From contig NZ_FOKL01000008.1 of assembly GCF_900112025.1 (NCBI RefSeq), positions 226,766 through 290,765 on the forward strand: a stretch of DNA of 64,000 nt, in the 5' to 3' direction. Position 1 is the stretch's first letter; every line of letters begins with the position of its first letter. Shown here piece after piece: positions 20,447-42,796 of this stretch. The stretch comes from Janthinobacterium sp. 344 (GTDB lineage Bacteria > Pseudomonadota > Gammaproteobacteria > Burkholderiales > Burkholderiaceae_D). Under the pieces are notes generated by a model. That model was not told where the DNA came from. It did not search any database and saw only the letters and a program-made list of their open reading frames with translations. The translations under genes and the position numbers were made by a program.

Positions 20447-20467
20447 CGCCGCTTTTCTCCACACCCC

Positions 20468-25326: not shown

Positions 25327-25327
25327 C

Positions 25328-27237: not shown

Positions 27238-27966
27238 ATGAACGCCAGCGCCATCGAGTTCGACAATGTGCACACGCAGCTGGACGGCATGGCCGTCCTG
27301 CGCGGCGTCGACCTGCACGTGCGCGCGGGGGAACTGTTCGGCCTGGTGGGCGTCAACGGTGCGGGCAAGACCACCCTGCTCAAATGCCTGCTGGACTTTT
27401 GCACGCCGCAGGCGGGCAGCATCGCCATCTTCGGCCAGCCGCACCGGCATAGCGCGGCGCGCCAGCCCCTGTCCTTCCTGCCCGAGCGTTTCCAGGCACC
27501 GTATTACCTGACGGGCGACGATTTCCTGCGCTACCTAGCGCGCCTGCACCAGGTGCGCCACGACGAACACGCGCTGCGGCAGATACTGGCGGCGCTGGAG
27601 CTGGCGCCGGAAGCCCTGCGCCGTCCCGCGCGCACGTTTTCAAAGGGCATGATGCAAAAGCTGGGGCTGGCCGCCTGCCTGCTGTCGGGCAAGCGGCAGC
27701 TGGTGCTCGACGAACCGATGAGCGGACTCGACCCGAAGGCGCGCGCGCAATTCAAGCAGGCGCTGCGGCAATGCCAGGCACAGGGCCGTGGCGCCCTGCT
27801 CACCTCGCATGCGCTGGCCGATGTGGAAGAGCTGTGCGACCGCATGGCCATCCTGCATGCGGGCCGCATCGTGTTTATTGGCACGCCCGCCGCCTGCCGC
27901 GCACAGCACGGCGGTGCGCCGGACGCCAGCCTGGAACAGGCGTTCTTGCATTGTATTGCCGCATGA
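27238..27966 (+). CDS. ABC transporter ATPase, first gene of the second pilus-like operon
   Basis: The 242-residue nucleotide-binding subunit has Walker A GVNGAGKTT near residues 38-46. The signature is TFSKGMMQKLGL, the KGM variant found in ABC-2 exporters such as NosF/CcmA types. Walker B is LVLDEPMSGLDP near 156 and the switch His is in LLTSHALADVEEL. Its likely partner permease lies 12 kb away at 40001 in the same operon. PilH/PilI in Myxococcus pilus loci are a precedent for such a pair. Its ATGA overlap with the next gene ties it to the operon. The substrate is unknown. Confidence 0.9.
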   Translation: MNASAIEFDNVHTQLDGMAVLRGVDLHVRAGELFGLVGVNGAGKTTLLKCLLDFCTPQAGSIAIFGQPHRHSAARQPLSFLPERFQAPYYLTGDDFLRYLARLHQVRHDEHALRQILAALELAPEALRRPARTFSKGMMQKLGLAACLLSGKRQLVLDEPMSGLDPKARAQFKQALRQCQAQGRGALLTSHALADVEELCDRMAILHAGRIVFIGTPAACRAQHGGAPDASLEQAFLHCIAA

Positions 27967-29429
27967 GCACCCACGCCCACCACCCTGTCGCGCCCGGCGA
28001 TCCAGAGCATCCCTATGCGCCGTCGCCGCACGGCATGTATCTGCGCCATTTCGGCTTGCGCACGGCGCCGTTCGGCATTACGCCGGACCCGGCCTTCTTC
28101 TATCCCGGCAATACGCGCGGCGAATTGCTCGCGGCGCTGCTGTATGCCGTCACGCAGGGTGAAGGCATCATCAAGCTGACAGGGGAAGTGGGCAGCGGCA
28201 AGACCATGCTGTGCCGCATGCTGGCCGAGCGCCTGCCGCCGCGCATCGACGTGCTGTACCTGCTCAATCCCAGCCTGGCGCCGGACGAAGTCATGCATGC
28301 CATCGGCGCCGAACTGGGTCTGGCACTGGCCGGCCATGGCGCCGATGCCGTGCTGCGCGCCCTGCATGCCGAACTCATCAACAGGCACGCGGCGGGCCGC
28401 CAGGTACTCTTGCTGGTGGAAGAGGGGCAAGCCATGCCGGCCGATACGCTCGAAGCGCTGCGCCTGCTGACGAACCTGGAAACGGCCAGCCATAAGCTGC
28501 TGCAAATCGTGCTGTTCGGCCAGCCGGAACTGCAGCACACGCTGGACTTGCCCCAGTTGCGCCAATTGAAGGAGCGCATCACGCACAGTTTTACGGTGCC
28601 GCGCCTGCCGCCCGCCTTGCTGAACGATTATCTGGCATGCCGGCTGGCGGCGGCCGGCCGCGCGGCGCCGCTCGTCTTCGCGCCGGCCGCCCTGCGCCTG
28701 CTGGCGCGCGCCTCGCAGGGCATCGTGCGGCGTATAAACATATTGGCGGACAAGGCCTTGCTGGCGGCCTACACCGACGACGCGCAGGAAATCCAGGCGC
28801 GGCACCTGCGCCTGGCCATCGCCGACAGCCCTTTCCGCCCCGCGCCATGGCATGCGGGCAAGCCGCTGGCCATCGTCCTCGTCGCGCTGATGCTGCTGCT
28901 GGCGGCCGCACTGCTGTGGCAATGGCTGGCGCCCGCGCACGGCGGCGCAGGCGCGGCAGCCGCGACGGCAACCGCCGCCAGCACGCCGGCCATGGCGACG
29001 GGCAGCAGGGCGCCACCGCCCGCGTCCGCGTCCGCGCCGCTGCTTGAGCGCAGCTTGCTGGAATCGCGCGGCTGGCTGGCGCGGCAAGACGCGCAGCAGC
29101 TGAGCGTGCACATTGCCACCCTGCCGGCCGCCGACAGGGCCGCGGCCGAAGCATTCCTGCAACAGGCGCAGCAAGCCATCGGCCTGCGCGATCTGCACGT
29201 CTTCCGCCTGCCGGGCGAGACGTCGGCAACCGGCCACGCCGGCATGCCGGCCGTCCTGCCGGCCAACGCCTCCGCGCGCCTGCTGTTTGTCTACGGCAGC
29301 TTCGCCGACCGGGCCAGCGCCGAGGCCTTGTGGACACGGCAACACAGTGCATCACCACAGAAACTATTGCTGATCGACATGGAGAGTATCCGCACGGAAA
29401 TGAAAGCCGTCGAACACGAAAATCACTGA
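27963..29429 (+). CDS. ExeA/MshM-like AAA ATPase with C-terminal periplasmic SPOR-like part
   Basis: This 488-residue protein is homologous to MshM: FGLRTAPFGITPDPAFFYPG near 32-51, Walker A GEVGSGKTM near 80 and Walker B VLLLVEEGQA near 151, where the usual Asp-Glu is Glu-Glu. ETASHKLLQIVLFGQPELQH follows. A transmembrane helix near 300-320 is followed by an Ala/Thr linker and a C-terminal domain (LLFVYGSFADRASAEALWTR) that resembles a SPOR peptidoglycan-binding repeat. ExeA-type proteins help insert the secretin through the cell wall, and the added domain fits that role. It overlaps the ABC ATPase gene by 4 bases. Confidence 0.88.
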   Translation: MSTHAHHPVAPGDPEHPYAPSPHGMYLRHFGLRTAPFGITPDPAFFYPGNTRGELLAALLYAVTQGEGIIKLTGEVGSGKTMLCRMLAERLPPRIDVLYLLNPSLAPDEVMHAIGAELGLALAGHGADAVLRALHAELINRHAAGRQVLLLVEEGQAMPADTLEALRLLTNLETASHKLLQIVLFGQPELQHTLDLPQLRQLKERITHSFTVPRLPPALLNDYLACRLAAAGRAAPLVFAPAALRLLARASQGIVRRINILADKALLAAYTDDAQEIQARHLRLAIADSPFRPAPWHAGKPLAIVLVALMLLLAAALLWQWLAPAHGGAGAAAATATAASTPAMATGSRAPPPASASAPLLERSLLESRGWLARQDAQQLSVHIATLPAADRAAAEAFLQQAQQAIGLRDLHVFRLPGETSATGHAGMPAVLPANASARLLFVYGSFADRASAEALWTRQHSASPQKLLLIDMESIRTEMKAVEHENH

Positions 29430-29551
29430 CGTGGTACACCCTGATTTTATTTCCTTTTATTCCCTCCGTGCCCTGCACAGACGATTGCTTTTAGAGGATC
29501 ATGGTGGTTAAAATTGCTAAAGCACAACACGACTTCAAGGGCGCACTTTTC

Positions 29552-31516
29552 ATGAATCAACAGCCTATTCCCGTGCTGGCCTCTCGCCTCGCCCTCGCCT
29601 GCAGCGCCATGCTGGCCGGTTGCGCCTCGCATCAAATGCCCTTGTCGCCCGCTCACCTGAATGAAGCGCCGCGCCCGGCAGGCGCCATTCCCGAACCCGT
29701 GCAGCAGAGCAGCGTGCTGCCCGCGCCGCTGCCGGCCGCCAAGGCGGAAACGTACAGCGTCACCGTGCACAAGGTGCCCGTGCAATCGCTGCTGTTCGCG
29801 CTGGCGCGCGACGCCGGCATGAACGTGGACATTCACCCGCAGATCGAAGGCAGCGTGACCCTGAACGCGCTGAATCAGACCCTGCCGCAACTGCTGACGC
29901 GTATCAGCAAGCAAGTCGATATGCGCTACGAAATCGATGGCAAGAACCTGCTGGTGCTGCCGGACGCGCCCGTATGGCGCAATTACAAGGTCGATTACGT
30001 CAACATGGCGCGCAGCACCAACAGCAGCGTCAATATCGCCACGCAGATTTCCACGGCCGGTGCCGGCAGCAACAGCAGCGCCAATGCGAATGCCCAGGGC
30101 AGCAGCGGCAATGGCAATAACAATTCGACGACGCTGGTGGTGAATCGTTCAGAGAATAATTTCTGGTACAGCCTGGAAAGGAATATCCGCGACTTGCTGC
30201 GCGAAACGACGCTCAACGACGCGCAGGTGGACCCGCTGGCGCAGCTGAACCAGCAGCTGACGGCGGCCCAGGGCAATGCGCCAGGCCAGCAGGGCCAAGC
30301 GGGCCAGCAAGGCCAGCAGCAGAACCCGGGCGGCAATGCGCCGCCCCCAACGCAAAATGGCGGCCAGTACGGCAATCAATACGGCAGCCAGGCGCCGATG
30401 CAGACGGGCGGCCAGCTTGCGCCGGGACAGCAGCAGGGCAACGCCAACCCGGCCCAGCCGGTCGATGCGAACGGCCTGCCCCTGCTGAAACTGGCCAACA
30501 AGGGCAGCCCGTCGTCGGTGGTGGTGAACGTCGAGGGCGGCCTGATCGCCGTGCGCGCCACGGGGCGCCAGCACGAGAAAATCGCCGAATTCATCGACAC
30601 GGTGCTGCACAGCGCCAAGCGGCAGGTGCTGATCGAGGCGACCATCATCGAAGTGCGCCTGAGTAACGAGTACCAGCAGGGCATCAACTGGTCGCGCCTG
30701 ACGGGCAACCTGCAGCTGCGCCAGCAGCAGGTGGGCACGCTGCCATCGGGCGTGACGCCCGGTGCCACGCCCGGCATCTTCGTGCTCAACTATCTGAAAG
30801 ACAGTTTCAGCACCACCATCCAGCTGCTGGAATCGTTCGGCAAGGTGAAAGTGCTGTCCAGTCCGAAGATCAGCGTGCTCAACAACCAAACGGCGATGCT
30901 GAAGGTGGTCGACAACAACGTCTTCTTCACCATCAAGGTCACGCCCGCCGTGATCAGCTCGACAGGCACCATCACCACGCCCGCCACCTACGAATCGAAG
31001 CTGGAAACGGTGCCCGTGGGCTTCGTCATGAGCGTCACGCCACAGATTTCCGACAGCGACGAAGTGACCCTGAACGTGCGCCCCACCATCACGCGCATCG
31101 TCGGCTATGAACAGGATCCGAACCCGGCCCTGGCCACGGCCAACGTGCGCAGCCGCGTGCCCGTGATACAGGCGCGTGAACTCGAGTCGATCATGAAGGT
31201 AGGCAACGGCCAGATCGCCGTGATGGGTGGCCTGATGCAAGATTCCATCGACAATCTCAAGGACGGCGTGCCCGGCCTGTCCAGCCTGCCCGTGGTGGGC
31301 AATCTGTTCACCTATCGTAGCGAAGCCAACAGCAAGACGGAGCTGGTGATCTTCATGCGCCCCGTGGTGGTCAAGGATGCTGGCATCGATGGCGACTTCC
31401 GCGACTACCGCTACCTGCTGCCAGGTCAGGCGCCGCTCAACAGCCAGCCGTACACGGAAGGACCGCCCGCGGCCGCCGCACCGCCGCAGGCGCGCGTGCA
31501 GGGAGACTTTCCATGA
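29552..31516 (+). CDS. MshL-like secretin of the second machine
   Basis: This 654-residue outer-membrane secretin starts MNQQPIPVLASRLALACSAM with lipobox LAGC, Cys near residue 24. An upstream ATG at 29501 would add 17 residues before the signal. An STN domain (VPVQSLLFALARDAGMNVDI) is followed by LLVLPDAPVWRNYKVDYVNM. A long Gln/Gly/Asn/Pro-rich insert spans about residues 230-310 (30240-30470). The secretin core ends with VKVLSSPKISVLNNQTAMLK, IAVMGGLMQDSIDNLKDGVP and LPVVGNLFTYRSE. It is clearly a paralogue of mshL. Its ATGA overlaps the next gene. Confidence 0.93.
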   Translation: MNQQPIPVLASRLALACSAMLAGCASHQMPLSPAHLNEAPRPAGAIPEPVQQSSVLPAPLPAAKAETYSVTVHKVPVQSLLFALARDAGMNVDIHPQIEGSVTLNALNQTLPQLLTRISKQVDMRYEIDGKNLLVLPDAPVWRNYKVDYVNMARSTNSSVNIATQISTAGAGSNSSANANAQGSSGNGNNNSTTLVVNRSENNFWYSLERNIRDLLRETTLNDAQVDPLAQLNQQLTAAQGNAPGQQGQAGQQGQQQNPGGNAPPPTQNGGQYGNQYGSQAPMQTGGQLAPGQQQGNANPAQPVDANGLPLLKLANKGSPSSVVVNVEGGLIAVRATGRQHEKIAEFIDTVLHSAKRQVLIEATIIEVRLSNEYQQGINWSRLTGNLQLRQQQVGTLPSGVTPGATPGIFVLNYLKDSFSTTIQLLESFGKVKVLSSPKISVLNNQTAMLKVVDNNVFFTIKVTPAVISSTGTITTPATYESKLETVPVGFVMSVTPQISDSDEVTLNVRPTITRIVGYEQDPNPALATANVRSRVPVIQARELESIMKVGNGQIAVMGGLMQDSIDNLKDGVPGLSSLPVVGNLFTYRSEANSKTELVIFMRPVVVKDAGIDGDFRDYRYLLPGQAPLNSQPYTEGPPAAAAPPQARVQGDFP

Positions 31517-32982
31517 GCTTGCTCATGCAGGCGCTCAAGAAGGCCGAGCGCGCCAAGCAGAACAGCCTGCCCGACGAGGAGCTGGAAAAGCCGTCGGAAG
31601 CCTACGACCAGGTACTGGCGCTGGCGCCGGCCGATGCCATGCCCGCCCGTCCCGCAGCGGCAGCAGCGACGCCGCCGCCCGTGCCGGCGCCGAGCACCCT
31701 GAGCCTGGAACCGCTGGGCGATACGCCCGCACCAGCGCCGGCGCCATCGTCCAGTCCGACGCCGGCGCCGCCGCCCGGCGCTACCCCGGCCCAGCCGGCA
31801 ACGGCGCAGGCCGCGGGGCCGCAGCCAGGCCCGCGCAGCGAGCCGCCGCGCGCGCGTCCCGAGCCGCCGGCCGCCAAGCCCCGCGCCAGCCGCAGCAACA
31901 CGCCGCCGAAAGGTCCTGCCGGCCCCATCAGTGTCGACCCTGCCACCGTGCGCCTGGCCGTCCTGCTGGGCGTCCTGCTGCTGGTGGCAGGCTCGATGGC
32001 GTACTGGTACTGGCGCGCCAGCACCAGCCCCGGCGCGGGCGCCAACCTGCCCGGCGTGCCCATGCCGCTGACCGATGCGCCTGGCGCAGCCAGTGCCGCC
32101 GGCCCCATCGTGGTACTGGCGGCCCCGGGCACAGCCACGCCAGCGGCTCCCGCGCCACTGCCGCCAGCCCTGCCGCCCGAATTGCAGCAGGCGCCGCGCC
32201 AGCAAGCCAGCGCGGCCGAACAGCAGGCGATGATACAAGCGGCGGCCCAGGCGGCCGTGGCGGCGCAGCTGGCGCAGATGCCGCCACCGGCACCGCCCAG
32301 CCTGCCGCCCGTCGCCGCGCCTGACAATAGCCAGATCCAGGTGCTGCGCAACGCGCCCGCGCCGCAGATCGCGCCCGGCGTGCAGCAAGCCTATCAGGCC
32401 CTGAACGGGGGCCAGCTGGGCGCCGCGCGCCAGCAATATGAAGCCGTGCTGCAGCAAGACCCCAACAACCGCGATGCCCTGCTGGGCCTGGCGGCCGTGG
32501 CCCTGCGCGACAGGCAGGGCGCGCAAGCCGCGGCACTGTATGTACGTTTGCTGGAGATCAATCCCGACGATGGCGAGGCGCTGGCCGGGCTGATCGGCTT
32601 GCGCCAGGGCGACGTGGTGCAAAGCGAAGCGAAATTGAAAGCCATCCTGGCCCGCTCGCCCGACAGCGGCCCCGTGCTGTTCGCCCTGGGCAATGTGTAC
32701 GCCAAGCAGCGCCGCTGGAACGAGGCACAGCAGCAATTCTTCCGCGCCTACAACGCCGTGCCAGGCAATCCCGACTATGCCTTCAACCTGGCCGTGGGCC
32801 TGGACCGGCTGAACCAGCCGAAGCTGGCCGCCACCTATTACCAGCGCGCGCTGGCCCTGGCGCAAACGGCGCCCGCCGCCTTTGACCGCGCCGTGGTGCA
32901 GGCGCGCCTGCGCGAACTGGGCATGCCGATGGCTGCCGCGCCAGGCAGCGACCCGGCCATCATCATTATCCGTCAGGAATAA
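31513..32982 (+). CDS. MshN-like TPR protein
   Basis: The 489-residue protein begins MSLLMQALKKAERAKQN, a motif shared with GspB/MshN-type anchors. An extremely Pro/Ala-rich region covers about residues 45-140, then a single transmembrane helix (LAVLLGVLLLVAGSMAYWYW) near 150-170 and a second Pro/Ala region. TPR repeats fill about 290-470 (AYQALNGGQLGAARQQYEAV, ALFALGNVYAKQRRWNEAQQ). It is probably a periplasmic scaffold for secretin or alignment-complex assembly. It overlaps the secretin gene by 4 bases and occupies the position mshN has next to mshE. Confidence 0.88.
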   Translation: MSLLMQALKKAERAKQNSLPDEELEKPSEAYDQVLALAPADAMPARPAAAAATPPPVPAPSTLSLEPLGDTPAPAPAPSSSPTPAPPPGATPAQPATAQAAGPQPGPRSEPPRARPEPPAAKPRASRSNTPPKGPAGPISVDPATVRLAVLLGVLLLVAGSMAYWYWRASTSPGAGANLPGVPMPLTDAPGAASAAGPIVVLAAPGTATPAAPAPLPPALPPELQQAPRQQASAAEQQAMIQAAAQAAVAAQLAQMPPPAPPSLPPVAAPDNSQIQVLRNAPAPQIAPGVQQAYQALNGGQLGAARQQYEAVLQQDPNNRDALLGLAAVALRDRQGAQAAALYVRLLEINPDDGEALAGLIGLRQGDVVQSEAKLKAILARSPDSGPVLFALGNVYAKQRRWNEAQQQFFRAYNAVPGNPDYAFNLAVGLDRLNQPKLAATYYQRALALAQTAPAAFDRAVVQARLRELGMPMAAAPGSDPAIIIIRQE

Positions 32983-32989
32983 GCATCAC

Positions 32990-34693
32990 ATGGCAGAACA
33001 GGCAAAACTTCCCCTCGGCAAGCTGCTGATCCAGAAGGGCGTGATCAGCGAAGACCAGCTGCGCATCGCGCTGATCGAGCAAAAGCGCAGCAGCGAGCCA
33101 CTGGGCAAGCTCTTGATCACCCTGGGCTTCGTCACGGAAGCCACGGTGCGCGAGGCGCTCAGCGAAAACCTGAAACAGGTGAGCGCCGATCTGTCGAGCC
33201 TGGTCGTCGACGCCATCGCATTGAAACTCATCCCGAAGGATGTGGCCAAGCGCTACCGCGTCTTTCCCATCGTCTACGAACGGCAGGCCGACAACCTGAT
33301 CCTGGCCATGGCCGACACGAGCAACATCGTCGCGCTGGACCAGATCAGCGCCATGCTGGTCAAGGGCATCACGATTTCCACCGTGCTGGTCAACGAATCG
33401 GATATTTCACGCGCCATCGACCAGTATTACGGCTTCGAGCTGTCGATCGACGGCATCCTGCATGAAATCGAAACGGGCGAAGTCAGCTATCAAAGCATGG
33501 CCTCGCCCTCGGACGAATACAGCCAGCCCATGGTGCGCCTGATCGATGCGCTGCTGGCCGACGCCGTGCAGCATGGCGCCTCCGACATCCATTTCGAGCC
33601 GGAGCAGTCGTTCCTGCGCATCCGCTACCGCATCGACGGCATCCTGCGGCAGATCCGCAGCCTGCACAAATCGTACTGGCCGGCCATGGCCGTGCGCCTG
33701 AAGGTGATGTCGGGCATGAATATCGCCGAGGCGCGCGCACCGCAGGATGGCCGCATCAGCATCAAATTTTCCGGCAGGCAAATCGACTTCCGCGCCTCGG
33801 CGCAACCGACCACGCATGGCGAAAACGTCGTGCTGCGCGTGCTGGACCGGCAAAAAGGCATCGTCCCGCTCGATGCGCTGGGCCTGGCCGAGGCGGAACT
33901 GAACCTGCTGAAACTGATGATCGCGCGGCCCGACGGCGTGATCCTCGTGACGGGCCCGACGGGCAGCGGCAAGACCACCACCCTGTATTCGATACTCAAC
34001 CATATCAATACGGAAAGCGTCAACATCATGACCTTGGAAGATCCGGTCGAGTATCCGATGAACATGATACGCCAGACTTCCGTCAACGAGTCCGTCAAGC
34101 TGGGCTTTGCCGACGGCATCCGCTCGATGATGCGGCAGGATCCGGACATCATCCTGGTGGGCGAGATCCGCGACCGCGAAACGGCGGAAATGGCCTTTGC
34201 CGCCGCCATGACGGGCCACCAGGTGTATTCCACCCTGCATACGAGCTCGGCCATCGGCTCCGTCTCGCGCCTGCTCGACATCGGCATCCTGCCCGACATC
34301 ATGGCCGGCAACATCATCGGCATCGTGGCGCAGCGCCTGGTGCGCCGCCTGTGCCCGCACTGCAAGGAAAGCGTGATCGCCGACGAGGTCGAGCGGCGCC
34401 TGCTGGGATTGGTTTCCGACGATGCCGAAGTCAGCATCTGCCGCGCCGTCGGCTGCGAGCGCTGCGCGCACCAGGGCTACAAGGGCCGCCTGGCCATCAT
34501 GGAAATCCTCAAGATGACGGCCGAACTCGACGAGTTGACGGCGCGCCGCGCGAGCAGCCGCGAATTGAAGAACGCGGCCCGCGCGGCCGGCTTCAAGGCG
34601 CTGGTCGACGACGGCATGCGCCGCGTGCGCGAAGGCGTCACCACGCTGGAAGAAGTGGCCCGCGTGGTCGACCTGACGGACAGGCTGGTCTGA
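32990..34693 (+). CDS. GspE/MshE-like assembly ATPase of the second machine
   Basis: This 567-residue motor ATPase has exactly the length of MshE. Two N-terminal MshEN-like motifs are present (LPLGKLLIQKGVISEDQLRI from residue 7, PLGKLLITLGFVTEATVREA from about 37). However, both carry Pro where the c-di-GMP-binding Arg or Lys stands in MshE. The core has SDIHFEPEQSFLRIRYRIDG, Walker A GPTGSGKTT near 324, DPDIILVGEIRDRET and HTSSAIGSVSRLLDIGI. A tetracysteine zinc site (CPHC and CERC) is near 455-495. It probably drives pseudopilus or pilus extension. No retraction ATPase accompanies it. Confidence 0.94.
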   Translation: MAEQAKLPLGKLLIQKGVISEDQLRIALIEQKRSSEPLGKLLITLGFVTEATVREALSENLKQVSADLSSLVVDAIALKLIPKDVAKRYRVFPIVYERQADNLILAMADTSNIVALDQISAMLVKGITISTVLVNESDISRAIDQYYGFELSIDGILHEIETGEVSYQSMASPSDEYSQPMVRLIDALLADAVQHGASDIHFEPEQSFLRIRYRIDGILRQIRSLHKSYWPAMAVRLKVMSGMNIAEARAPQDGRISIKFSGRQIDFRASAQPTTHGENVVLRVLDRQKGIVPLDALGLAEAELNLLKLMIARPDGVILVTGPTGSGKTTTLYSILNHINTESVNIMTLEDPVEYPMNMIRQTSVNESVKLGFADGIRSMMRQDPDIILVGEIRDRETAEMAFAAAMTGHQVYSTLHTSSAIGSVSRLLDIGILPDIMAGNIIGIVAQRLVRRLCPHCKESVIADEVERRLLGLVSDDAEVSICRAVGCERCAHQGYKGRLAIMEILKMTAELDELTARRASSRELKNAARAAGFKALVDDGMRRVREGVTTLEEVARVVDLTDRLV

Positions 34694-35898
34694 TGGCGCT
34701 GTATGTCTACCGCGCCATGGATGCGGCCGGGGCGATGATTCCCGGCAGCATGGAGGCGGCCAATGTGCCGGACCTGGAGGCGCGCCTGCACCACATGCAG
34801 CTCGACCTGATCGACTGCAAGATCACGGGACAGTATCTGGTGTTGCTGGGCAAGCGCGTGATCCACCGCCGCGACCTGATCAATTTCTGCTTCCACATGG
34901 AGCAATTGACGGGGGCCGGCGTGCCCATCCTGGAAGGCTTGAACGACTTGCGCGAAAGCACGGATCATCCGCGCCTGCGCGAAGTCGTCACGGATCTGAT
35001 TGAAAGCATCGAGGGCGGCCTGCCGCTGTCGGGCGCGCTGGCCCAGCATGGCGACATCTTCGACGCCACCTTCACCAGCCTGATCCTGGCGGGCGAACAG
35101 AGCGGCAAGATCGCCGAAGTCTTCAAGAACCTGTCGGAAAGCCTGAAATGGCAGGACGAGCTGGCGTCGCAGACGCGCAAGATCGTCATGTACCCGATCA
35201 TCGTGGCCCTCGTCGTGGCGGCCGTGACGTTTTTCCTGATGATTTACCTTGTGCCCCAGCTGACGGCCTTCATCCGCAACATGGGCGGCGAGTTGCCGCT
35301 GCATACGCGCGCGCTGATCTTTGTATCGAATGTGTTCATCGATTACTGGTATGTGCTGCTGGCCCTGCCCGTGCTGGCCTTCTTCGGCGGGCGCGCGGCG
35401 ATCCGCCGCAGCGCGCCGGTGCGCTATGCCTGGGATGGCCTGAAGCTGCGGCTGTGGCTGATCGGTCCCGTGCTGCACAAGATCATCCTGTCGCGCTTTG
35501 CCACGTTTTTTGCCCTGATGTATGCATCCGGCATCAGCATCCTCGAATGCATCCGCCTGTCCGAAGGCATCGCCGGCAACCAGGTGGTGGCCGCCGGCCT
35601 GCGCCGCGCCGCGCAGCTGATCAGCGAAGGCCACGGCGTCACCGCCGCCTTCCAGCACACGGGCATCTTTCCGCCGCTGGTGATCCGCATGCTGAAAGTG
35701 GGCGAAGCCACGGGATCGCTGGATACGGCCTTGCGCAATGTGAGCTATTTCTACAACCGCGAAGTGAAGGAATTGATTGAAAAAGTGCAGGCGATGATAG
35801 AGCCGGCCATGACCGTGATCCTGGGCCTGCTGCTGGGCTGGATCATGCTGTCCGTGCTGGGGCCGATCTACGACACCATCAGTACGATGAAAACTTGA
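34693..35898 (+). CDS. GspF/PilC-like inner-membrane platform protein
   Basis: The 401-residue platform protein begins MALYVYRAMDAAGAMIPGSM. It has two GspF domains (INFCFHMEQLTGAGVPILEG near 60-80 and RFATFFALMYASGISILECI near 268-288). Three transmembrane regions lie near 170-195, 215-235 and at the C-terminus (MTVILGLLLGWIMLSVLGPI). The glycine-glutamate signature LILAGEQSGKIAEVF is present. The start overlaps the ATPase stop by one base (TGATG). It is a paralogue of mshG at 24091. Confidence 0.94.
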   Translation: MALYVYRAMDAAGAMIPGSMEAANVPDLEARLHHMQLDLIDCKITGQYLVLLGKRVIHRRDLINFCFHMEQLTGAGVPILEGLNDLRESTDHPRLREVVTDLIESIEGGLPLSGALAQHGDIFDATFTSLILAGEQSGKIAEVFKNLSESLKWQDELASQTRKIVMYPIIVALVVAAVTFFLMIYLVPQLTAFIRNMGGELPLHTRALIFVSNVFIDYWYVLLALPVLAFFGGRAAIRRSAPVRYAWDGLKLRLWLIGPVLHKIILSRFATFFALMYASGISILECIRLSEGIAGNQVVAAGLRRAAQLISEGHGVTAAFQHTGIFPPLVIRMLKVGEATGSLDTALRNVSYFYNREVKELIEKVQAMIEPAMTVILGLLLGWIMLSVLGPIYDTISTMKT

Positions 35899-35919
35899 GA
35901 CCCGAGACCTGAGGCCGCC

Positions 35920-37485
35920 GTGTTCCGCAAACAACTGCTCTACATCACCAGCGATGCCCTGTGCGCCTACGACTGGCACCATGGCGCGCTGGGCCCCGGC
36001 CAGGTGTTTCCCGCCAGCGCGGCCGGGCTGGACGACTTCGCCGCCTGGCTGGAAGACCCGCAGGCGCAGCGGCTGGACGTGCCCGCCTACCTGCTGACGG
36101 ACTTGATCGAGGAAGATTTCCAGCACCAGCTCGTGCCGCACGTGCGCGGCAAGGCGGGCCGCGCGCTGCTGGAGCGGCGCAAGCAGCAGCTGCACCGCGA
36201 TACCCCCTACCGCGGCAGCACCCTGCTGGGCCGCGAAAGCACGGGCCGCCACGACGACCAGGTGCTGTTCTTCGCGCTGACCAATCCCTCGCTGCTGCAG
36301 CCGTGGACGGAGGCGCTGGAACACTTGCGCATTCCCGTCGCCGGCATCTATTCGACCAGCCTGCTCAGCATCGCCCTGGTACGCAAGCTGGCCCTCGCGC
36401 ACGAACACCTGCTGCTGGTGACGCAGCAATCAGGCGGCTTGCGGCAAAGCTACTATGAAAAGGGCCAGCTGCGCTTCTCGCGCCAGACGGCCACCATCGC
36501 GCTCGACGGCGTGGCCGTGAATATCGCACTGGAAACGGAGAAGACCCGGCAATTTCTCACCAGCACGCGCATGCTGGCGCGCGGCGAAGTGCTCAATACC
36601 GTCATCCTGGCGCCGGCCGCGCAGATCGCCAAGCTCGAACTGCTGTGCGATAACGACCTGGAAGTGGCCTACCACTTCATCGACCTGCAAGTCGCCAGCG
36701 AGCGCGTGGGCTTGCGGCAGACGCCGGCGCTGGCCGATGAGTTGCTGCTGACCTTGCTTGGCAAGCAGCCGCCGCCCAGCCATTACCCGCCGGGCGCGCT
36801 GGCGCGCTATTACCACTTCCAGCGCGCGCGCAAGGCGCTGTATGGCGCCAGCGCGCTGATCGGCGCCTCGGCGGCCCTGTGGTGCGTGATCAACGTCCTG
36901 GGCGGCATCAACGATGACGCGGCCGGCGCGCGGCTGCGGCAGGAAACGGCCTCCTACGAGGAACGCTACCGCAACATCATGTCCGGCATGCCGCCGGCGC
37001 CCGCCAAGACGCAGAACATGAAAGTGGCCGTCACCCTGGGACGCATGATCGCCAGCCAGGCGCCGGAGCCGGGCCGGCTGCTGGGCATGCTGAGCGCGGC
37101 GCTGGACCAGGCGCCGCAAGTCCAGCTGGGCCAGCTGCACTGGAACGCGGGACCGCCGTCGGCGCGCACGCCGGGCAGCGGGCAGGCGCCGCCGCAGGCC
37201 GGCAACAGTCCCCCGCCGGGCAGCAGCCTGGCCGGCATTCCCGTGCCGCCGCCGCAGGCGCTGCGCCTGGAAGCGGACGTGGCCATGCCAAACAATGACT
37301 ACCGCGCCGCGCTGGGCGCCATCACGGCCTTTGCGCAAACGCTGGCGCGCCAGCCGGGCATGCAGGTAGCCATCGAGGAAACGCCGCTGGACTTGCGTTC
37401 CAGCGTGGCCCTGTCCGGCAAGAGCGCCACGCCGGCGCCGGACAGCCAGGCCCGCTTTACCCTCCTGCTGGTGTGGCAGCCATGA
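35920..37485 (+). CDS. PilM-PilN-like fusion (GspL-type alignment protein)
   Basis: The 521-residue protein starts at a GTG with GAGG about 5 bases upstream. The cytoplasmic part, about 1-300, contains FFALTNPSLLQPWTEALEHL and RIPVAGIYSTSLLSIALVRK, reminiscent of the actin-like fold of PilM/MshI/GspL. One transmembrane helix lies near 307-327 (GASALIGASAALWCVINVLG), followed by a coiled coil, a Pro/Gly-rich linker and a small C-terminal periplasmic domain (ALGAITAFAQTLARQPGMQV) of PilN type. It would thus combine in one chain what MshI and MshI2 do separately. Assignment is by architecture and position. Confidence 0.78.
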   Translation: MFRKQLLYITSDALCAYDWHHGALGPGQVFPASAAGLDDFAAWLEDPQAQRLDVPAYLLTDLIEEDFQHQLVPHVRGKAGRALLERRKQQLHRDTPYRGSTLLGRESTGRHDDQVLFFALTNPSLLQPWTEALEHLRIPVAGIYSTSLLSIALVRKLALAHEHLLLVTQQSGGLRQSYYEKGQLRFSRQTATIALDGVAVNIALETEKTRQFLTSTRMLARGEVLNTVILAPAAQIAKLELLCDNDLEVAYHFIDLQVASERVGLRQTPALADELLLTLLGKQPPPSHYPPGALARYYHFQRARKALYGASALIGASAALWCVINVLGGINDDAAGARLRQETASYEERYRNIMSGMPPAPAKTQNMKVAVTLGRMIASQAPEPGRLLGMLSAALDQAPQVQLGQLHWNAGPPSARTPGSGQAPPQAGNSPPPGSSLAGIPVPPPQALRLEADVAMPNNDYRAALGAITAFAQTLARQPGMQVAIEETPLDLRSSVALSGKSATPAPDSQARFTLLLVWQP

Positions 37486-38165
37486 GCGGCCCCGTCAAGC
37501 AAACGCCGCTGCCAGGCATGAAAAAGGCCGCCGCGCCCGCCCCTGCCCTGCCCGCCTGGCTGGGCGAACTGCCGCTGATCCGCCGCGCCCTGCTGTGCTT
37601 TGCGCTGACCCTGCTGGCCAGCCTTATACTGCTGAGCCTGAGCGCCGCGTACCGCGAACGCGCGGCGCAGCAGTTCGAATTCGCCCGCCATGCGCGCGCG
37701 GCGGCGGCCAGCCTGTTCAACCACGCGGAAGCGGAAAAAGGCGAAATACGCCTGTACGAACCGCAATTTCTCGCCTTGCGCCAGCGCGGCCTGATCGGCG
37801 AGGAAAACCGCCTGGCCTGGATCGACGCCATCCGGCTGAGCCAGGAACAGCGCAAGCTGCTGCCCATCGGCTATGAAATCAGCGCTCAGCAAACGCTGCA
37901 AGTGCCCACGCCGATGGCCATGGGCCAATACCAGCTGCGCGGCAGCCGCATGCAGCTGCATCTGGACTTGCTGCACGAACTCGATTTGCTGAACTTGCTC
38001 GATGACTTGCGCCAGGCGGGCTATTTCGCCGTGCAGGAATGCACGCTCAAGCGCAATGGCGCAGGTGGCCCGCCGGCAGGCGCCACGTCTGCCCTCAGCG
38101 CCGACTGCAGCCTGCTGTGGCTGACCCTGGGCAGCGTCGCCGTGCCCGTGCAGGGCTTGCCATGA
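37482..38165 (+). CDS. PilO/GspM-like inner-membrane protein
   Basis: This 227-residue single-pass protein has a proline-rich cytoplasmic start (PVKQTPLPGMKKAAAPAPA), a transmembrane helix near residues 40-60 (LLCFALTLLASLILLSLSAA), a coiled coil rich in Ala and Glu, and a periplasmic domain (RGSRMQLHLDLLHELDLLNL, LDDLRQAGYFAVQECTLKRN) matching the ferredoxin-like PilO/MshJ fold. ATG 37482 overlaps the previous stop as ATGA. It is expected to form the alignment complex with the preceding PilM-N-like protein. Confidence 0.8.
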   Translation: MSGPVKQTPLPGMKKAAAPAPALPAWLGELPLIRRALLCFALTLLASLILLSLSAAYRERAAQQFEFARHARAAAASLFNHAEAEKGEIRLYEPQFLALRQRGLIGEENRLAWIDAIRLSQEQRKLLPIGYEISAQQTLQVPTPMAMGQYQLRGSRMQLHLDLLHELDLLNLLDDLRQAGYFAVQECTLKRNGAGGPPAGATSALSADCSLLWLTLGSVAVPVQGLP

Positions 38166-38575
38166 AGCGCGCCGTGCTCCTGTGCGCACTGTTCGGGGCG
38201 GCTTTCTGCGCGCGCGCCCAGGGGCCGCAGCTGGGGCGCCTGTTCATGACGCCGGAACAGCGCACCCAGCTGGATGCGCAGCGCTACGGTCCGCCGCCGG
38301 GCACGCCGGCCCCGGCCGTAGCGCCGCCGCCCCCGCCACCGCCACCGCCCCCGCCGCCCATGGAATTGAACGGCATGGTCGAGCGCAGCAGCGGACGCTC
38401 GACCGTCTGGCTGAACCAGACGCCGCAGCAGGAACCGCACAACCAGCTCGACCAGGCCAGGGGCGGCACCCTGACCTTGCGCCTGTCGAGCGGCCAGGTG
38501 GTGCGGCTGAAACCGGGCCAGCGCTACGACCCGGCCAGCGGCAGCGTCAGCGAAGCGCCGGAGGGACAGCCATGA
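38162..38575 (+). CDS. Small exported protein with a 12-proline tract (MshK/PilP position)
   Basis: The 137-residue protein has a signal peptide (MKRAVLLCALFGAAFCARA). Next come LFMTPEQRTQLDAQRYG and an uninterrupted run of 12 prolines near residues 56-67. A small beta-rich domain follows (MELNGMVERSSGRSTVWLNQ; LTLRLSSGQVVRLKPGQRYD). This domain and its place after the PilO-like gene match MshK/PilP/GspC linkers between platform and secretin. The proline run would stall ribosomes without EF-P. It overlaps both neighbours by 4 bases. Confidence 0.78.
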   Translation: MKRAVLLCALFGAAFCARAQGPQLGRLFMTPEQRTQLDAQRYGPPPGTPAPAVAPPPPPPPPPPPPMELNGMVERSSGRSTVWLNQTPQQEPHNQLDQARGGTLTLRLSSGQVVRLKPGQRYDPASGSVSEAPEGQP

Positions 38576-39288
38576 GGCAGATACCGTCGCAGCGCGGCGC
38601 CGCTTTGCTGCTGCTGGTGGCCGTGCTGGGCCTCGGTGCGGCCAGCCTGCTGATCGGTGCCTTTGGCCGCGATACGGGCGAGGCGGCGCGCCAGCAGCGC
38701 ACCCTGGCCACCCTGGCGCAGGCCCGCGACGCCTTGCTGGGCTTTGCCGTCACGCACGGCCGCCTGCCCCGTCCGGCCGCTTCCGCCCTCGATGGCCACG
38801 AGCGCGCCGCCGACTGCGCCAGCGACGCCGACTGCAGCGGCTTCCTGCCGTGGGTGACGCTGGGCGTGGCGGGCAGCGACGCCTGGGGCAAGCTGCTGCG
38901 CTACAGCGTCACGCCGCAAATGAGCCGCGCGCCCATCATCTCGTTTTCCGCCGTCGCCAACCGGGTCGTGCTGGCGCGCGACGGCAGCGGCGCCTTCGCC
39001 TATGTGGCGGGACAGGACCTGTGCGACGTCAGCGCCCAGTGCCTGCCCGCCGTGCTGTTCTCGCAAGGCAAGGAGCACTTCGGCACCACGGCCAGCGGCG
39101 TGGCGCAACGCAATACGGCACGCGGCAATATCGATGAGGCCAGCAACGACCACGCCAGCCGCAGTTTCATTTTCCGCCCCGCCAGCGCCAATGACGCGCT
39201 GCCGGGCGGCGCCTTCGACGACATGTTTACCTGGATTACCTTGCCTGCCCTGTATCAACGCATGCGCGCCGCGCGCAACCTGCCATGA
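38572..39288 (+). CDS. Pilin-like protein without the canonical Glu5 (first of a paralogous pair)
   Basis: The 238-residue protein starts MRQIPSQRGAALLLLVAVLG. It has a short basic leader and a hydrophobic helix as in PilX/GspK-type minor pilins, but no GFTLIE-like motif and no Glu5. The globular part parallels the next gene: ARDALLGFAVTHGRLPRP, GFLPWVTLGVAGSDAWGKLL and the end DDMFTWITLPALYQRMRAAR. The shared C-terminal sequence shows that the pair arose by tandem duplication. It may be a non-cleaved or tip-located partner of the following pilin. Confidence 0.85.
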   Translation: MRQIPSQRGAALLLLVAVLGLGAASLLIGAFGRDTGEAARQQRTLATLAQARDALLGFAVTHGRLPRPAASALDGHERAADCASDADCSGFLPWVTLGVAGSDAWGKLLRYSVTPQMSRAPIISFSAVANRVVLARDGSGAFAYVAGQDLCDVSAQCLPAVLFSQGKEHFGTTASGVAQRNTARGNIDEASNDHASRSFIFRPASANDALPGGAFDDMFTWITLPALYQRMRAARNLP

Positions 39289-40001
39289 GCGCCCGCCCGC
39301 CATCCCTGCGCCGGCAGCGCGGCTTTTCGCTGATCGAGATCGCCATCGTGCTGGTCATCGTCGGCCTGATGATCGGCGGCCTGGTCACGCCGCTGACGGT
39401 GCAGCTGGAGCAGCGCAAGGTGGCCGAGACGCAAAAGGCGCTGGACGAGGCGAAGGAAGCCTTGACGGGCTACGCGCTGCGCTATGGCTACCTGCCCTGC
39501 CCCGCCATTTCCGCCGTGAATGGCCTGGAAGACCGGCGCGGCGGCCGCTGCAACGGCGACAAGCGCGTGGGCTTCCTGCCCTGGGCCACCCTGGGCTTGC
39601 GCCAGGGCGATAGCTGGGACAAGCTGTTCCGCTACAGCGTGACCCCCGCCTTCAGCGACAGCGAACAGCTGTTCAACCTGGGAACGCCGCGCGACATCAG
39701 CATCGTCACGCGCAATGGCGGCCCGCTGCTGCAGGCGACGGCGCTGAACGACATCCCCGCCATGATCATGTCGCACGGCAAGAACGGTTTCGGCGCCACC
39801 AGCGTGCAGGGCCAGCGCCAGGCCGTGGCCGCGGGGAACAATGTCGACGAGCGCAGCAATGCTGCGAGCAGCAACATCTACATCAGCCGTCCCGCCAGCG
39901 GCGCGCAGCAGCCGGGCGGCGAGTTCGACGACATCGTCGTCTGGCTGTCGCCCAACATCCTGTTCAACCGCATGGTGGCCGCGCAAAGGCTGCCCCGCTG
40001 A
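39285..40001 (+). CDS. Pilin-like protein with canonical prepilin motif (second of the pair)
   Basis: The 238-residue protein has leader MSARPPSLRRQR and cleavage motif GFSLIEIAIVLVIVGLMIGG with Glu5. The body contains KALDEAKEALTGYALRYGYL, PCPAISAVNG, VGFLPWATLGLRQGDSWDKL and the ending DDIVVWLSPNILFNRMVAAQ, each of which aligns with the preceding protein. It overlaps that gene by 4 bases and the ABC permease start by one base (TGATG). It may be a major or minor pseudopilin. The fold of the C-terminal domain is not recognised. Confidence 0.88.
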   Translation: MSARPPSLRRQRGFSLIEIAIVLVIVGLMIGGLVTPLTVQLEQRKVAETQKALDEAKEALTGYALRYGYLPCPAISAVNGLEDRRGGRCNGDKRVGFLPWATLGLRQGDSWDKLFRYSVTPAFSDSEQLFNLGTPRDISIVTRNGGPLLQATALNDIPAMIMSHGKNGFGATSVQGQRQAVAAGNNVDERSNAASSNIYISRPASGAQQPGGEFDDIVVWLSPNILFNRMVAAQRLPR

Positions 40002-40780
40002 TGCTGATCTCCACCCTGGCTCCCGCGCGCACCATCGCCCGCTACACCGTGCTCGAAGCGCTGCGCAGCCGCCTGCTGTGGCTCTTCGTGCTGGCCGCCT
40101 GCGGCGCCGCCGGCCTGGCCGGCTTCCTGCAGCAACTGGCGCTGACGGAAAGCGGCGCCGTGCAGGCGGCCCTGCTGGCGGCCACCTTGCGCCTGGCCAG
40201 CGTCTTCCTGCTGGCCACCTTCATTGTCACCAGCATGGCGCGCGAAGCGGCCGACAAGGGCCTGGAACTGCTGCTGGCCCTGCCCATGCCGCGCGCCGCC
40301 TACCTGCTGGGCAAGCTGCTGGGGCATGCGGCGCTGGCGGCCGTTCCCGCCGCGCTCTTCGGCGCCTTGATGGCGCTGTTCGCCGCGCCCGCGCAGGCCG
40401 CGCTGTGGGCCCTGTCCCTGCTGGCAGAATTGTGGATCGTCGCGGCCTTCAGCCTGCTGTGCGCGGCCAGCCTGCAGCAGACGCTGCCCGCGCTGGCCGC
40501 CGTCAGCGGCTTCTATGTGCTGGCGCGCCTGCTGGGCAGCCTGCAATTGCTGGCGCATAGTCCCCAGGCGGGCCGCTCCTGGGCGCAGCAGGCCATGGCG
40601 GGCGGCATCGACGTCCTGGCCCTGCTGCTGCCCCGCCTCGACGATTTTACGCGCACGGAATGGCTGCTGTACGGCACCGGCGACTTGGCCGCCCTGGCTG
40701 GCATGGCGGCGCAAACGGCCATCTATGTCGGCTTGCTGGCTGCCTGCGCGCTGTGCGATTTTTACCGCAGGAATATCTGA
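40001..40780 (+). CDS. ABC-2 type transporter permease of the second pilus-like operon
   Basis: The 259-residue permease has six predicted transmembrane helices. It starts MLISTLAPARTIARYTVLEA. The first helix near 26-45 contains LLWLFVLAACGAAGLAGFLQ, and the conserved MAREAADKGLELLLALPMPR near 79-98 is the coupling segment typical of ABC-2 permeases. It probably pairs with the ATPase encoded at 27238, the only other ABC component in the operon. One-base overlaps bind it to the pilin gene before it and the TPR-like gene after it. The substrate is unknown. Confidence 0.88.
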   Translation: MLISTLAPARTIARYTVLEALRSRLLWLFVLAACGAAGLAGFLQQLALTESGAVQAALLAATLRLASVFLLATFIVTSMAREAADKGLELLLALPMPRAAYLLGKLLGHAALAAVPAALFGALMALFAAPAQAALWALSLLAELWIVAAFSLLCAASLQQTLPALAAVSGFYVLARLLGSLQLLAHSPQAGRSWAQQAMAGGIDVLALLLPRLDDFTRTEWLLYGTGDLAALAGMAAQTAIYVGLLAACALCDFYRRNI

Positions 40781-41493
40781 TGGCCGCCTCCCTGCGCCCC
40801 TGGTCCAGCGTGCCGCGCCCCGTGTGCTGGCTGCTGGCGGCCTGCCTGCTGCTGCAGCTGGGCTGGCGCGTGGCGCAACAGCAAGCGCCGGCGCAAGCGC
40901 GCCCGCTGCCCGCCGCGCCGCCAGCAGGCGTGGCGCGCCTGGCCAGCCTGGGCGAGCCGCTGGCCATGTCGAAGGCCATGCTGCTGTACCTGCAGGCGTT
41001 CGAGGACCAGCCCGGCGTCAGCCTGCCATGGCGCGCGCTCGACTATGAACGCCTGGCCGGCTGGCTGGAAACGGCGCAAACGCTCGATCCGCGCAGCCAG
41101 TACGCGCTGGTGGCCGCCAGCGAAGTGTATGCCGGCGTGGCCGATCCGCGGCGCGCGCGGCGCATGCTGGCGTTTGTCGCCGGCAGCTTCGCGGCCGACC
41201 CGCAACGGCGCTGGCCCGCCATGGCGCAAGCCGTGCTGGTGGCGAAGCACCAGTTGCACGACCTGCCACTGGCGCTCGGCTACGCGCGCGAACTGCGCCA
41301 GCTGGCGACGGGGCCGCAAGTGCCGCCCTGGGTGCGCGAAATGGAGGCGTTCATCCTGGAAGACATGGACCAGCTCGACAGCGCGCGCCTGGTGATCGGC
41401 GGCCTGATCGCCAGCGGCCAGATCAGCGACCCGCACGAGCTGGCATTCCTGGCGCGCCGCCTCGACGAACTTTCCGCAAAGAAAGCAAAGTGA
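40780..41493 (+). CDS. Membrane-anchored helical-repeat (TPR-like) protein next to the ABC permease
   Basis: The 237-residue protein has an N-terminal signal anchor (PVCWLLAACLLLQLGWRVAQ, near 13-32), an Ala/Pro linker and then paired helices. These include YERLAGWLETAQTLDPRSQY, ALVAASEVYAGVADPRRARR, QAVLVAKHQLHDLPLALGYA and MDQLDSARLVIGGLIASGQI, and look like divergent TPR or SEL1-type repeats. It overlaps the permease by one base, so it is probably a periplasmic partner of the ABC transporter, perhaps playing the role PilG has beside PilH-PilI in Myxococcus. That comparison is by position only. Confidence 0.7.
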   Translation: MAASLRPWSSVPRPVCWLLAACLLLQLGWRVAQQQAPAQARPLPAAPPAGVARLASLGEPLAMSKAMLLYLQAFEDQPGVSLPWRALDYERLAGWLETAQTLDPRSQYALVAASEVYAGVADPRRARRMLAFVAGSFAADPQRRWPAMAQAVLVAKHQLHDLPLALGYARELRQLATGPQVPPWVREMEAFILEDMDQLDSARLVIGGLIASGQISDPHELAFLARRLDELSAKKAK

Positions 41494-41610
41494 GCACCCT
41501 GACATGGCCGGCGCCGGCGGTGCGCAAACGCCATTCCCGCGCATGCCCATTTGCAGTAAACTGCCCGATAACCAGGCCCCCGCAGCCCACGCTTTTCACA
41601 AGGAATTCCC

Positions 41611-42183
41611 ATGCCCCCACGCCGCCAGCAAGGCTTTACGCTCGTTGAAATCGCCATCGTCCTGGTCATCATCGGCTTGCTGCTGGGCGGCGTGCTGAAG
41701 GGACAAGGCCTGATCGACAGCGCCAAGGTGAAAAACATCATCCAGCAGTCGAATTCGCTGACGGCCGCCGTCAACGCCTACCAGGATAAATTCCGCGCCC
41801 TGCCCGGCGACGATATCCAGGGTACCGTGCACGTGCCTAACTCGGCCGGCAACGGCAATGGCGACGGCCAGATCGGTGACGGCCAGCCGCGCGAATTCAC
41901 CTTGGCGCCGCAGCACCTGGCGCTGGGCGGCTTTATCACGGGCTCGTTCAACGGCACCTCGCAATTCATGACCAGCGCCCAGGGCGGCGCCGTCTACCTG
42001 TACAACGATGAAGTGGGCGGGCGGGCCGGCAACGGCATCCGTTTCGACAACTTGCCGGAAGGCTATGCGGAGCAGATCGACAGCAAACTCGACGATGGCG
42101 TGGCCAGCACGGGCAGCGTCCGGGCGAACATGCCATATGGCAATACCGGTGCTATCATCCCCCGCACCGCCGTGTTTTTCTGA
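41611..42183 (+). CDS. Prepilin-type protein, candidate major pilin of the second machine
   Basis: This 190-residue protein has a very short leader, MPPRRQQ, then GFTLVEIAIVLVIIGLLLGG with Glu5. KGQGLIDSAKVKNIIQQSNS and KFRALPGDDIQGTVHVPNSA follow; the LPGDD motif is widespread in proteobacterial pilins. The C-terminal domain is rich in Gly and Asn. AAGGA precedes the ATG at 6 bases. Unlike the rest of the operon it follows a 117-base gap, so it may have its own promoter and be made in larger amounts. No Cys pair is present. Confidence 0.9.
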   Translation: MPPRRQQGFTLVEIAIVLVIIGLLLGGVLKGQGLIDSAKVKNIIQQSNSLTAAVNAYQDKFRALPGDDIQGTVHVPNSAGNGNGDGQIGDGQPREFTLAPQHLALGGFITGSFNGTSQFMTSAQGGAVYLYNDEVGGRAGNGIRFDNLPEGYAEQIDSKLDDGVASTGSVRANMPYGNTGAIIPRTAVFF

Positions 42184-42210: not shown

Positions 42211-42576
42211 ATGTCGCTACATCGCAAAGTCATCATTTCCCTGGCCGCCGCCTGCGCCTTGCTGGCCGGCAGCGCCCAGGCCCAGTACGTGGGACCATCC
42301 ACCGGTCCTGAAGCGCCAAAGACCGTTGCCGCCATCCTGAAAAACCCCGTCGATGACCAGGCTGTCGTGCTGCGCGGCCATCTGCTGCGCAAGGTCGGCA
42401 ACGAAAAATACACGTTCTCCGACGGCACGGCGGAGATCCGCGTGGAAATCGACGACAAGGTCTTCATGAACCGCAAGATCGACGCCAGGACGCAGGTCGA
42501 GATCCGCGGCGAAGTGGAAAAGGACTTCATGGAAAGCCCGGAAATCGACGTCGACGTGCTGACCGTCGTCCAGTAA
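42211..42576 (+). CDS. Periplasmic BOF/YgiW-YdeI family OB-fold protein
   Basis: The 121-residue protein has a signal peptide (MSLHRKVIISLAAACALLAG, cleavage after AQA) and the bacterial OB-fold (BOF): TVAAILKNPVDDQAVVLRGH, LLRKVGNEKYTFSDGTAEIR and VEIDDKVFMNRKIDARTQVE. YgiW/YdeI proteins are stress-tolerance periplasmic proteins linked to peroxide, metal and cationic peptide resistance. AAGGAG stands 5 bases before the ATG. It begins 27 bases after the pilin gene and could be co-transcribed, but nothing in its family suggests a pilus role. Confidence 0.92.
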   Translation: MSLHRKVIISLAAACALLAGSAQAQYVGPSTGPEAPKTVAAILKNPVDDQAVVLRGHLLRKVGNEKYTFSDGTAEIRVEIDDKVFMNRKIDARTQVEIRGEVEKDFMESPEIDVDVLTVVQ

Positions 42577-42696
42577 GCTGCCCCGCTCTCCCGCCGCCAT
42601 GGCGGGATGAGCGCCTCGCCCGCCTGCCATCCGCGCAGCGCGGCGTTGTCTTCCCATGTTCCTGGCGCAACCTTTTTTCCACAGCAGAAACTAGGC

Positions 42697-42725: not shown

Positions 42726-42796
42726 CTTTTCATTCAACGTCAGCCAGCGCCAGCGTGAGCCAGCCTGTCGACTCATCCATTCTGGGAGCTTTCCGG

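Follow-up and report, generated by a model that had tools for sequence, protein, structure and literature searches.

Organization of the cluster

Positions 27238-42183 of the 64,000-nucleotide stretch of Janthinobacterium sp. 344 analyzed here (contig NZ_FOKL01000008.1; hereinafter, the window) hold fourteen plus-strand genes that probably encode a type IV filament (T4F) machine of a class of its own, a sister to the mannose-sensitive hemagglutinin (MSHA) pilus system, in which a dedicated ABC-2 type ATP-binding cassette (ABC) exporter acts as an accessory. The first-pass annotation of this DNA had described a tightly packed unit of fourteen genes, and a check of the window sequence bears this out: all open reading frames (ORFs) are open where they had been placed, and 9 of the 13 gene junctions are overlaps of 1-4 bp, the remaining ones being gaps of 122 bp (genes 02-03), 7 bp (04-05), 21 bp (06-07) and 117 bp (13-14). 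The host genome, of 6.44 Mb, contains nine secretin places.

The cluster opens with gene 01 (27238-27966), which codes for an ABC-2 type ATPase of 242 aa (ABC_tran family) with intact Walker A (GVNGAGKT), signature (SKGM) and Walker B (LVLDEP) motifs. It is followed by gene 02 (27963-29429), encoding an MshM-like AAA ATPase with a single Walker A motif (AAA_22 match and homology to MshM of MSHA), gene 03 (29552-31516) for an MshL-type secretin of the Secretin family that carries a lipobox-like LAGC close to its N-terminus, and gene 04 (31513-32982) for a protein with a tetratricopeptide repeat (TPR) match in the position of MshN. Gene 05 (32990-34693) encodes the assembly motor ATPase, with MshEN and T2SSE domains, a Walker A motif (GPTGSGKT) and two CxxC pairs, and gene 06 (34693-35898) the inner-membrane platform protein of the GspF/MshG family (T2SSF match). 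The product of gene 07 (35920-37485, GTG start) is a predicted PilM-PilN fusion of the GspL type, recognized from an AlphaFold2 model and its matches to structures in PDB. Genes 08 (37482-38165) and 09 (38162-38575) are assigned by place to the PilO/GspM and MshK positions, respectively; for genes 07, 08, 09 and 13, Pfam searches returned nothing over the cut-off.

Gene 11 (39285-40001) encodes a prepilin of 238 aa with an N_methyl motif (G/FSLIE). The pilin-like protein encoded by gene 10 (38572-39288) is homologous to it, with 37% identity over nearly the whole length, but lacks both the N_methyl match and Glu5, which is present in gene 11. An ABC-2 permease of 259 aa (ABC2_membrane_2 family) is encoded by gene 12 (40001-40780), and a protein with an N-terminal helix (residues 13-33) and, according to its structure model, a TPR-like alpha-solenoid by gene 13 (40780-41493); genes 11, 12 and 13 are joined by 1-bp overlaps. 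The last gene, gene 14 (41611-42183), codes for a prepilin of 190 aa with an N_methyl motif (G/FTLVE), a putative MshA-type major pilin, whose counterparts in the genus mates (L035-L040) share 95-97% identity with it. Family scans, including Pfam, of the 14 products detected neither a prepilin peptidase nor a retraction ATPase of the PilT type, as the first-pass annotation had stated.

Phylogeny of the motor ATPase and the secretin

The trees were built by a quick method from thinned sets of rows (87 and 79 for the ATPase, 73 for the secretin), with support given by the Shimodaira-Hasegawa-like approximate likelihood ratio test (SH-aLRT) only and no bootstrap. The PilB and GspE references were those over curated cut-offs; 15 of the 29 MSHA-like references entered. 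The MSHA label of L250-L278 is based on 55-65% identity to MshE of the window rather than on gene context. In the 79-row tree, the gene 05 ATPase falls within a clade of its own (35 rows, support 100), apart from the clades of MSHA (16 rows, 99), PilB (12 rows, 100) and GspE (12 GspE rows together with the type II secretion system (T2SS) ATPase of the same genome, 99), the branching order among these clades being unresolved. All 66 new ATPase rows form one clade in the 87-row tree; the row own_C17 of the ATPase tree is a long branch. Gene 05 thus does not lie inside the MSHA MshE clade (supports 100 vs. 99), and its identity to MshE of MSHA is 37-41% (37% to the neighboring locus). Gene 05 stays below the cut-offs of all NCBIfam models for named pilus or secretion ATPases and reaches only that of a cyclic di-GMP (c-di-GMP) motif model: the GspE model scores 518.3 bits against a cut-off of 630.25 and the PilB model 532.9 against 675.65, and the models of the respective secretins likewise remain below theirs (GspD, 150 against 351.35; PilQ, 99.1 against 284.35).

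Two more clusters with a secretin and GspE/GspF-type proteins are present in the same genome (L154 at G000:C12:254000-273000 and L155 at G000:C20:186000-205000). The two ATPases group with each other (support 100) and belong neither to the new clade nor to those of MSHA, PilB and GspE.

The secretin clade is a sister of MshL. In the 73-row tree, the MshL clade (support 97) and the new rows together with L337 (99) join each other with a support of 99, away from GspD; we refer to this secretin as an MSHA-sister, although by its model score it could also be labeled MshL. The references, picked with the MshL model, comprised 20 sequences (17 over the cut-off and three below), and the new rows need four label changes: L329, L331 and L332, which are over the MshL cut-off, lie inside, and L337, which is below it, lies at the base. 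By their position in the tree, these four are provisionally taken as further members of the new secretin clade. The window secretin itself scores 248.9 bits with the MshL model TIGR02519 of NCBIfam, the cut-off being 250.2, and the longer open frame 251.0; four relatives (L065, L128, L131 and L138) score 251.4-255.5 bits. In the samples searched, a placement inside a named system was found for neither protein, although the secretin scores at the border of the MshL cut-off, and the first-pass description of the cluster as a mismatch to MSHA, T2SS and type IVa pilus (T4aP) loci is supported, with the ATPase clade lying outside the sampled MSHA, PilB and GspE clades and the secretin clade beside MshL.

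The MshEN domain of gene 05 (33011-33169) may tie the motor to c-di-GMP. The MshEN arginine binds the nucleotide; given that both motifs in the window protein start with Pro instead of Arg, binding of c-di-GMP appears doubtful here. Across the wider clade, the first motif starts with Arg in 31 and with Pro in 23 of the 57 readable rows; the motifs were read with a simple pattern, which worked for 57 of the 77 new rows but for only one of the 30 MSHA rows.

A GspL-type protein in an MSHA-like setting

The AlphaFold2 model of the gene 07 product, with a predicted local distance difference test score (pLDDT) of 83.7 and a predicted template modeling score (pTM) of 0.62, consists of an actin-like domain (residues 1-296), a long helix and a periplasmic-type domain (residues 381-520). 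The actin-like domain matches PilM (5eou_B; Z 15.7, 4.2 A, 277 residues aligned) and the cytoplasmic domain of EpsL (1yf5; Z 14.9, 3.8 A, 230 aligned), with FtsA (Z 16.0) tying with PilM, and the C-terminal domain matches the periplasmic portions of PulL (5hl8_A; Z 12.1, 2.6 A, 81 aligned) and XcpY (6ghu_A; Z 11.9, 2.3 A, 78 aligned). A search of the gene 07 profile against PDB sequences gave no match. As modeled, the protein has the design of GspL, i.e., an actin-like domain, a membrane helix and a ferredoxin-like periplasmic domain. The neighboring MSHA locus, in contrast, encodes separate PilM_2 (26.8 bits, cut-off 27) and PilN (23.5 bits, cut-off 22.8) proteins. The cluster is, then, a mix of MSHA-like and T2SS-like (GspL-type) parts.

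Co-inheritance of the ABC module with the filament machine

To avoid selection on the ABC genes, named genomes were scanned with the platform gene 06, and the best 80 of its 474 relatives were taken as named loci; they belong to genera of Oxalobacteraceae and to Sulfuricella, the genera represented including Janthinobacterium, Duganella, Rugamonas, Massilia, Pseudoduganella, Undibacterium, Sapientia and Sulfuricella. Gene 01 is present in 53 of the 59 loci of this set that cover the 5' side, and the permease together with gene 13 in 60 of the 66 that cover the 3' side. Among the 54 loci covering both sides, all three genes of the ABC module are present in 48 and none in six, with no partial sets, gene 01 and genes 12-13 being located at opposite ends of the operon. 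The ABC genes are thus conserved with the cluster.

In the genomes of the six loci without the ABC module (L114, L117, L122, L124, L129 and L131), the permease profile finds nothing except for a 23-residue match in that of L124. This match was rejected as a permease: translation shows an N-terminal stub (L124:15835-15903) directly after pilin gene 11, with the rest of the gene gone. Because this stub remains behind gene 11, the absence of the module in L124 is a loss.

The same picture emerges from a family sample of 145 genomes, in which the permease search gave 25 loci, the window's own included. As far as the contigs reach, 23 of the 24 others carry the machine around the permease; the match in G029 was rejected as a relative, since the permease there is a distant one located near a T2SS cluster. 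The ABC ATPase was seen in 19 of the 24; it was not seen in L038, L041 and L057, all three of which are cut by contig ends, nor in L054 and the T2SS locus of G029.

The distribution was then assessed in one even draw from the class, Gammaproteobacteria in the GTDB sense, which was set at 400 genomes and yielded 369 from 272 genera; these were searched genome-wide with genes 07, 12 and 13. The gene 07 profile has matches in 73 genomes (57 genera), the permease in 54 and gene 13 in 53, the latter two occurring together in 53 genomes and the permease alone in one. The permease and gene 07 co-occur in 50 genomes, with 23 having gene 07 only, four the permease only and 292 neither (Fisher p 6e-39, a value that ignores kinship among the genomes). 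On the ATPase tree, the presence or absence of the permease changes at least seven times across 66 rows (47 with, 19 without). The ABC exporter is therefore a co-inherited yet dispensable partner of the machine. The link between transporter and machine proposed in the first-pass annotation is real and conserved, although calling the transporter "built-in" is too strong, with 23 of the 73 gene 07 genomes lacking the permease and at least one lineage having lost it.

Genomic regions were taken from 60 of the 72 gene 07 genomes other than the window's own. Genes 02-06, 08 and 09 are all present in 39 of these regions, many of the others being cut by contig ends. In G184 and G329, gene 07 occurs without the motor and platform genes despite sufficient flanking DNA; G436 showed a platform gene but no motor gene. 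A gene 07 match does not, therefore, guarantee a complete machine in every genome. Of the 60 regions, 28 have the permease and gene 13 downstream (with gene 13 cut off in one). Gene 01 was found in 22 of these 28; of the other six, G272, G263 and G393 terminate at a contig end, whereas G494, G398 and G285 do not. In many loci of the class, the ABC ATPase is encoded after a gene 14-like pilin and not at the head of the operon. For example, in G204, G458, G188, G366 and G402, the order is pilins-12-13-14-01, so that the ABC genes flank pilin 14.

Several observations concern individual components and loci. Gene 02 is missing in 3 of the 54 fully covered named loci, and it is absent, with the rest of the cluster in place, in L040, L073, L074 and L134, which indicates that this gene is dispensable. 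G366 carries two permease-gene 13 pairs (C146 and C198). Directly downstream of the window cluster (42211-47335) are genes for a hybrid histidine kinase of very large size and for a BOF (OB-fold) protein. Five of the six genus mates (L035-L039) have the BOF gene as well, whereas L040 and the 18 other permease-bearing loci of the family sample do not show it.

A probable role for the ABC module and the competing explanations

The gene 01 product has its nearest solved structures among ABCA lipid transporters, one bacterial ATPase and NosF, and among plausible relatives the gene 12 profile finds only PmtD, weakly (E 0.005). The model of gene 13 (pLDDT 85.7) matches common repeat folds, which carry no functional hint. 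We infer that genes 01, 12 and 13 form one inner-membrane exporter serving the filament.

The explanation we favor, with a probability of roughly 0.6, is that the cluster represents a distinct class of T4F machines, sister to MSHA, with this dedicated ABC-2 exporter as an accessory in the same pathway. The computed observations behind it are the gene content, the ATPase clade, the GspL-type fusion, the co-inheritance of the ABC module and its loss in at least one lineage. Under this scheme, pilins 10, 11 and 14 would build a pilus or pseudopilus that is led to or through the lipoprotein secretin. The exporter, composed of the ATPase (gene 01), the permease (gene 12) and the membrane-anchored TPR-like protein (gene 13), would use ATP to aid the handling of pilins at the inner membrane or to supply a periplasmic factor, much as has been claimed for PilGHI of Myxococcus, and in some species the machine would manage without it. 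We consider pilin handling or periplasmic supply the most likely role; the location of the ABC genes between or beside pilins in several gene orders, together with the precedent from Myxococcus, favors help in pilin export, processing or release.

A number of findings weigh against this proposal. Permease-less machines imply that the module is not essential: 23 of the 73 gene 07 genomes have no permease anywhere at E 1e-15, and the Massilia/Pseudoduganella loci L114, L117 and L122 retain genes 02-11 and 14 without the ABC module. Such dispensability speaks against a strictly essential step. Pilin 14 scores change little in these three loci (282-286 bits, compared to 284 in L121 and 302 in L115, both ABC-positive). 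In G494, G398 and G285 (3 of the 28 permease regions, with enough DNA), no ABC ATPase of the gene 01 family was seen, in some genomes (such as G350, G253 and G373) the permease and gene 13 are far from the machine, and the co-occurrence statistic, as noted, takes no account of kinship. Furthermore, because the MshL model nearly accepts the secretin, others may simply label the system MSHA. As for the precedent itself, one source states that ABC transport by PilGHI lacks experimental support and that PilGHI-similar genes are found in nearly all bacteria studied there (PMC6060248).

An alternative that we consider possible but unlikely is two-step secretion, whereby the ABC-2 exporter moves a peptide, lipid or glycan to the periplasm, in place of the Sec/Tat step of T2SS, and a pseudopilus together with the secretin then carries it outward. 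The GspL-type fusion, the scores of pilins 11 and 14 with GspG/GspH models, although below the cut-offs, the proximity of gene 01 to ABCA lipid transporters and NosF, the likeness of the permease to the peptide exporter PmtD and the lack of a retraction ATPase among the fourteen genes would all fit such a scheme. However, the operon shows no gene for a substrate, the similarity to PmtD is weak, and the machine persists without the permease in 23 of the 73 gene 07 genomes. In its broadest form, this would be an unnamed, widespread T4F class of Gammaproteobacteria (including Betaproteobacteria) in which the ABC-2 exporter, replacing or adding to Sec, feeds a substrate to the pseudopilus and secretin for export or display, as an ABC-fed piston; this, too, we regard as doubtful.

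A similarly tentative standing belongs to the possibility that the ABC module works independently of the machine, as an envelope transporter that has its own task and shares with the machine only its regulation, e.g., during surface-attached growth. The module is dispensable and sometimes unlinked, and loci of this kind can collect regulators, as indicated by G163, where a protein with a histidine kinase ATPase domain (L191:1498-3285) and a class III adenylate/guanylate cyclase (L281:5352-6659) are encoded inside the locus on the opposite strand. Against full independence stand the overlaps by 1 bp that join genes 11, 12 and 13 of the window, the insertion beside pilins in several gene orders and the rarity of the permease family where gene 07 has no match (4 of 296 genomes; among these four, G160 encodes L331, a secretin that falls in the new clade). 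G271 contains look-alike ORFs at the positions of the G163 regulators; neither is seen in the window cluster.

Finally, an ordinary MSHA system that was duplicated and diverged, with the ABC genes as passengers, is improbable and was rejected on the trees and co-occurrence: it would account for the MshM, MshL, MshN and MshEN parts, the secretin at the MshL cut-off and the minus-strand MSHA motor and platform genes that adjoin the cluster in 50 of the 80 named loci (nine reach far enough without them and 21 are cut), but the ATPase clade lies outside MSHA, PilM and PilN are fused here and separate next door, the distribution of the permease and gene 13 over the 369 genomes follows that of the machine, and gene 07 matches in 57 genera speak against a local duplication.

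Taken as an accessory of a distinct machine, the co-inherited ABC-2 exporter suggests a poorly recognized branch of T4F. This would be a deep branch, its marker gene being present in about a fifth of the class sample (73 of 369). Judged by titles and the openings of abstracts, we recognized no description of an ABC-linked T4F class among the papers listed from the open literature, and none on the MSHA of Janthinobacterium were listed. The main text of Denise 2019 does not contain the phrase "ABC transporter", its lone ABC remark concerning profiles of the platform protein (PMC6668835); in the same source, 884 systems are left generic and 191 are assigned as MSH systems, and members of the class described here may be found among either.

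Comparison with known systems

One of the closest systems is that of MSHA, known from Vibrio and present in the window at 13903-27031 on the minus strand. It shares with the cluster MshM, an MshL-type secretin, a TPR protein in the place of MshN, a motor ATPase with MshEN, and MshG, all in a single locus without a prepilin peptidase among its genes. The MSH model of Denise 2019, as given there, makes MshM, MshL, MshE and MshG mandatory together with mshA (PMC6668835), and homologs of the four Msh proteins are all found in the cluster, though by clade the MshE homolog is not that of MSHA. Besides this separate ATPase clade, the cluster differs in the fusion of PilM and PilN, which are two proteins in the neighboring locus, in a different pilin set, in the presence of the ABC-2 module and in the MshEN motifs of the window protein, which both open with Pro in place of Arg. 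The first-pass annotation regarded the core genes as paralogs of those of MSHA; this is valid in a broad sense, but they are not close copies, the identity to the neighbor being highest in MshM (45% over 280 aa) and lower in the motor ATPase (37%), the platform protein (30%) and the core of the secretin (28%).

With T2SS, the cluster has in common the GspL-type fusion, with its EpsL, PulL and XcpY matches, and the sub-cut-off GspG/GspH scores of pilins 11 and 14, whereas the GspD, GspE and GspF models remain far below their cut-offs and the ATPase lies outside the GspE clade. PmtCD and NosFY resemble the ABC module in combining a separate ATPase with a small permease of the ABC-2 class, but the permease similarity is weak (PmtD, E 0.005) and we know of no T4F partners of these transporters.

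The encoding of an ABC transporter together with a type IV pilus is shared with the T4aP and PilGHI of Myxococcus xanthus, where PilG, PilH and PilI are described as indispensable for translocating pilin (PMC3724824, citing Wu 1998). PilGHI belongs to a T4aP machine and the ABC module described here is dispensable; the comparison drawn here is one of gene association. Now that an ABC-2 exporter is seen to be inherited together with a filament machine in bacteria other than Myxococcus, the role of PilGHI becomes testable in easily grown species, for which the natural ABC-less relatives, such as Massilia sp. Root351 and Root418, could serve as controls.

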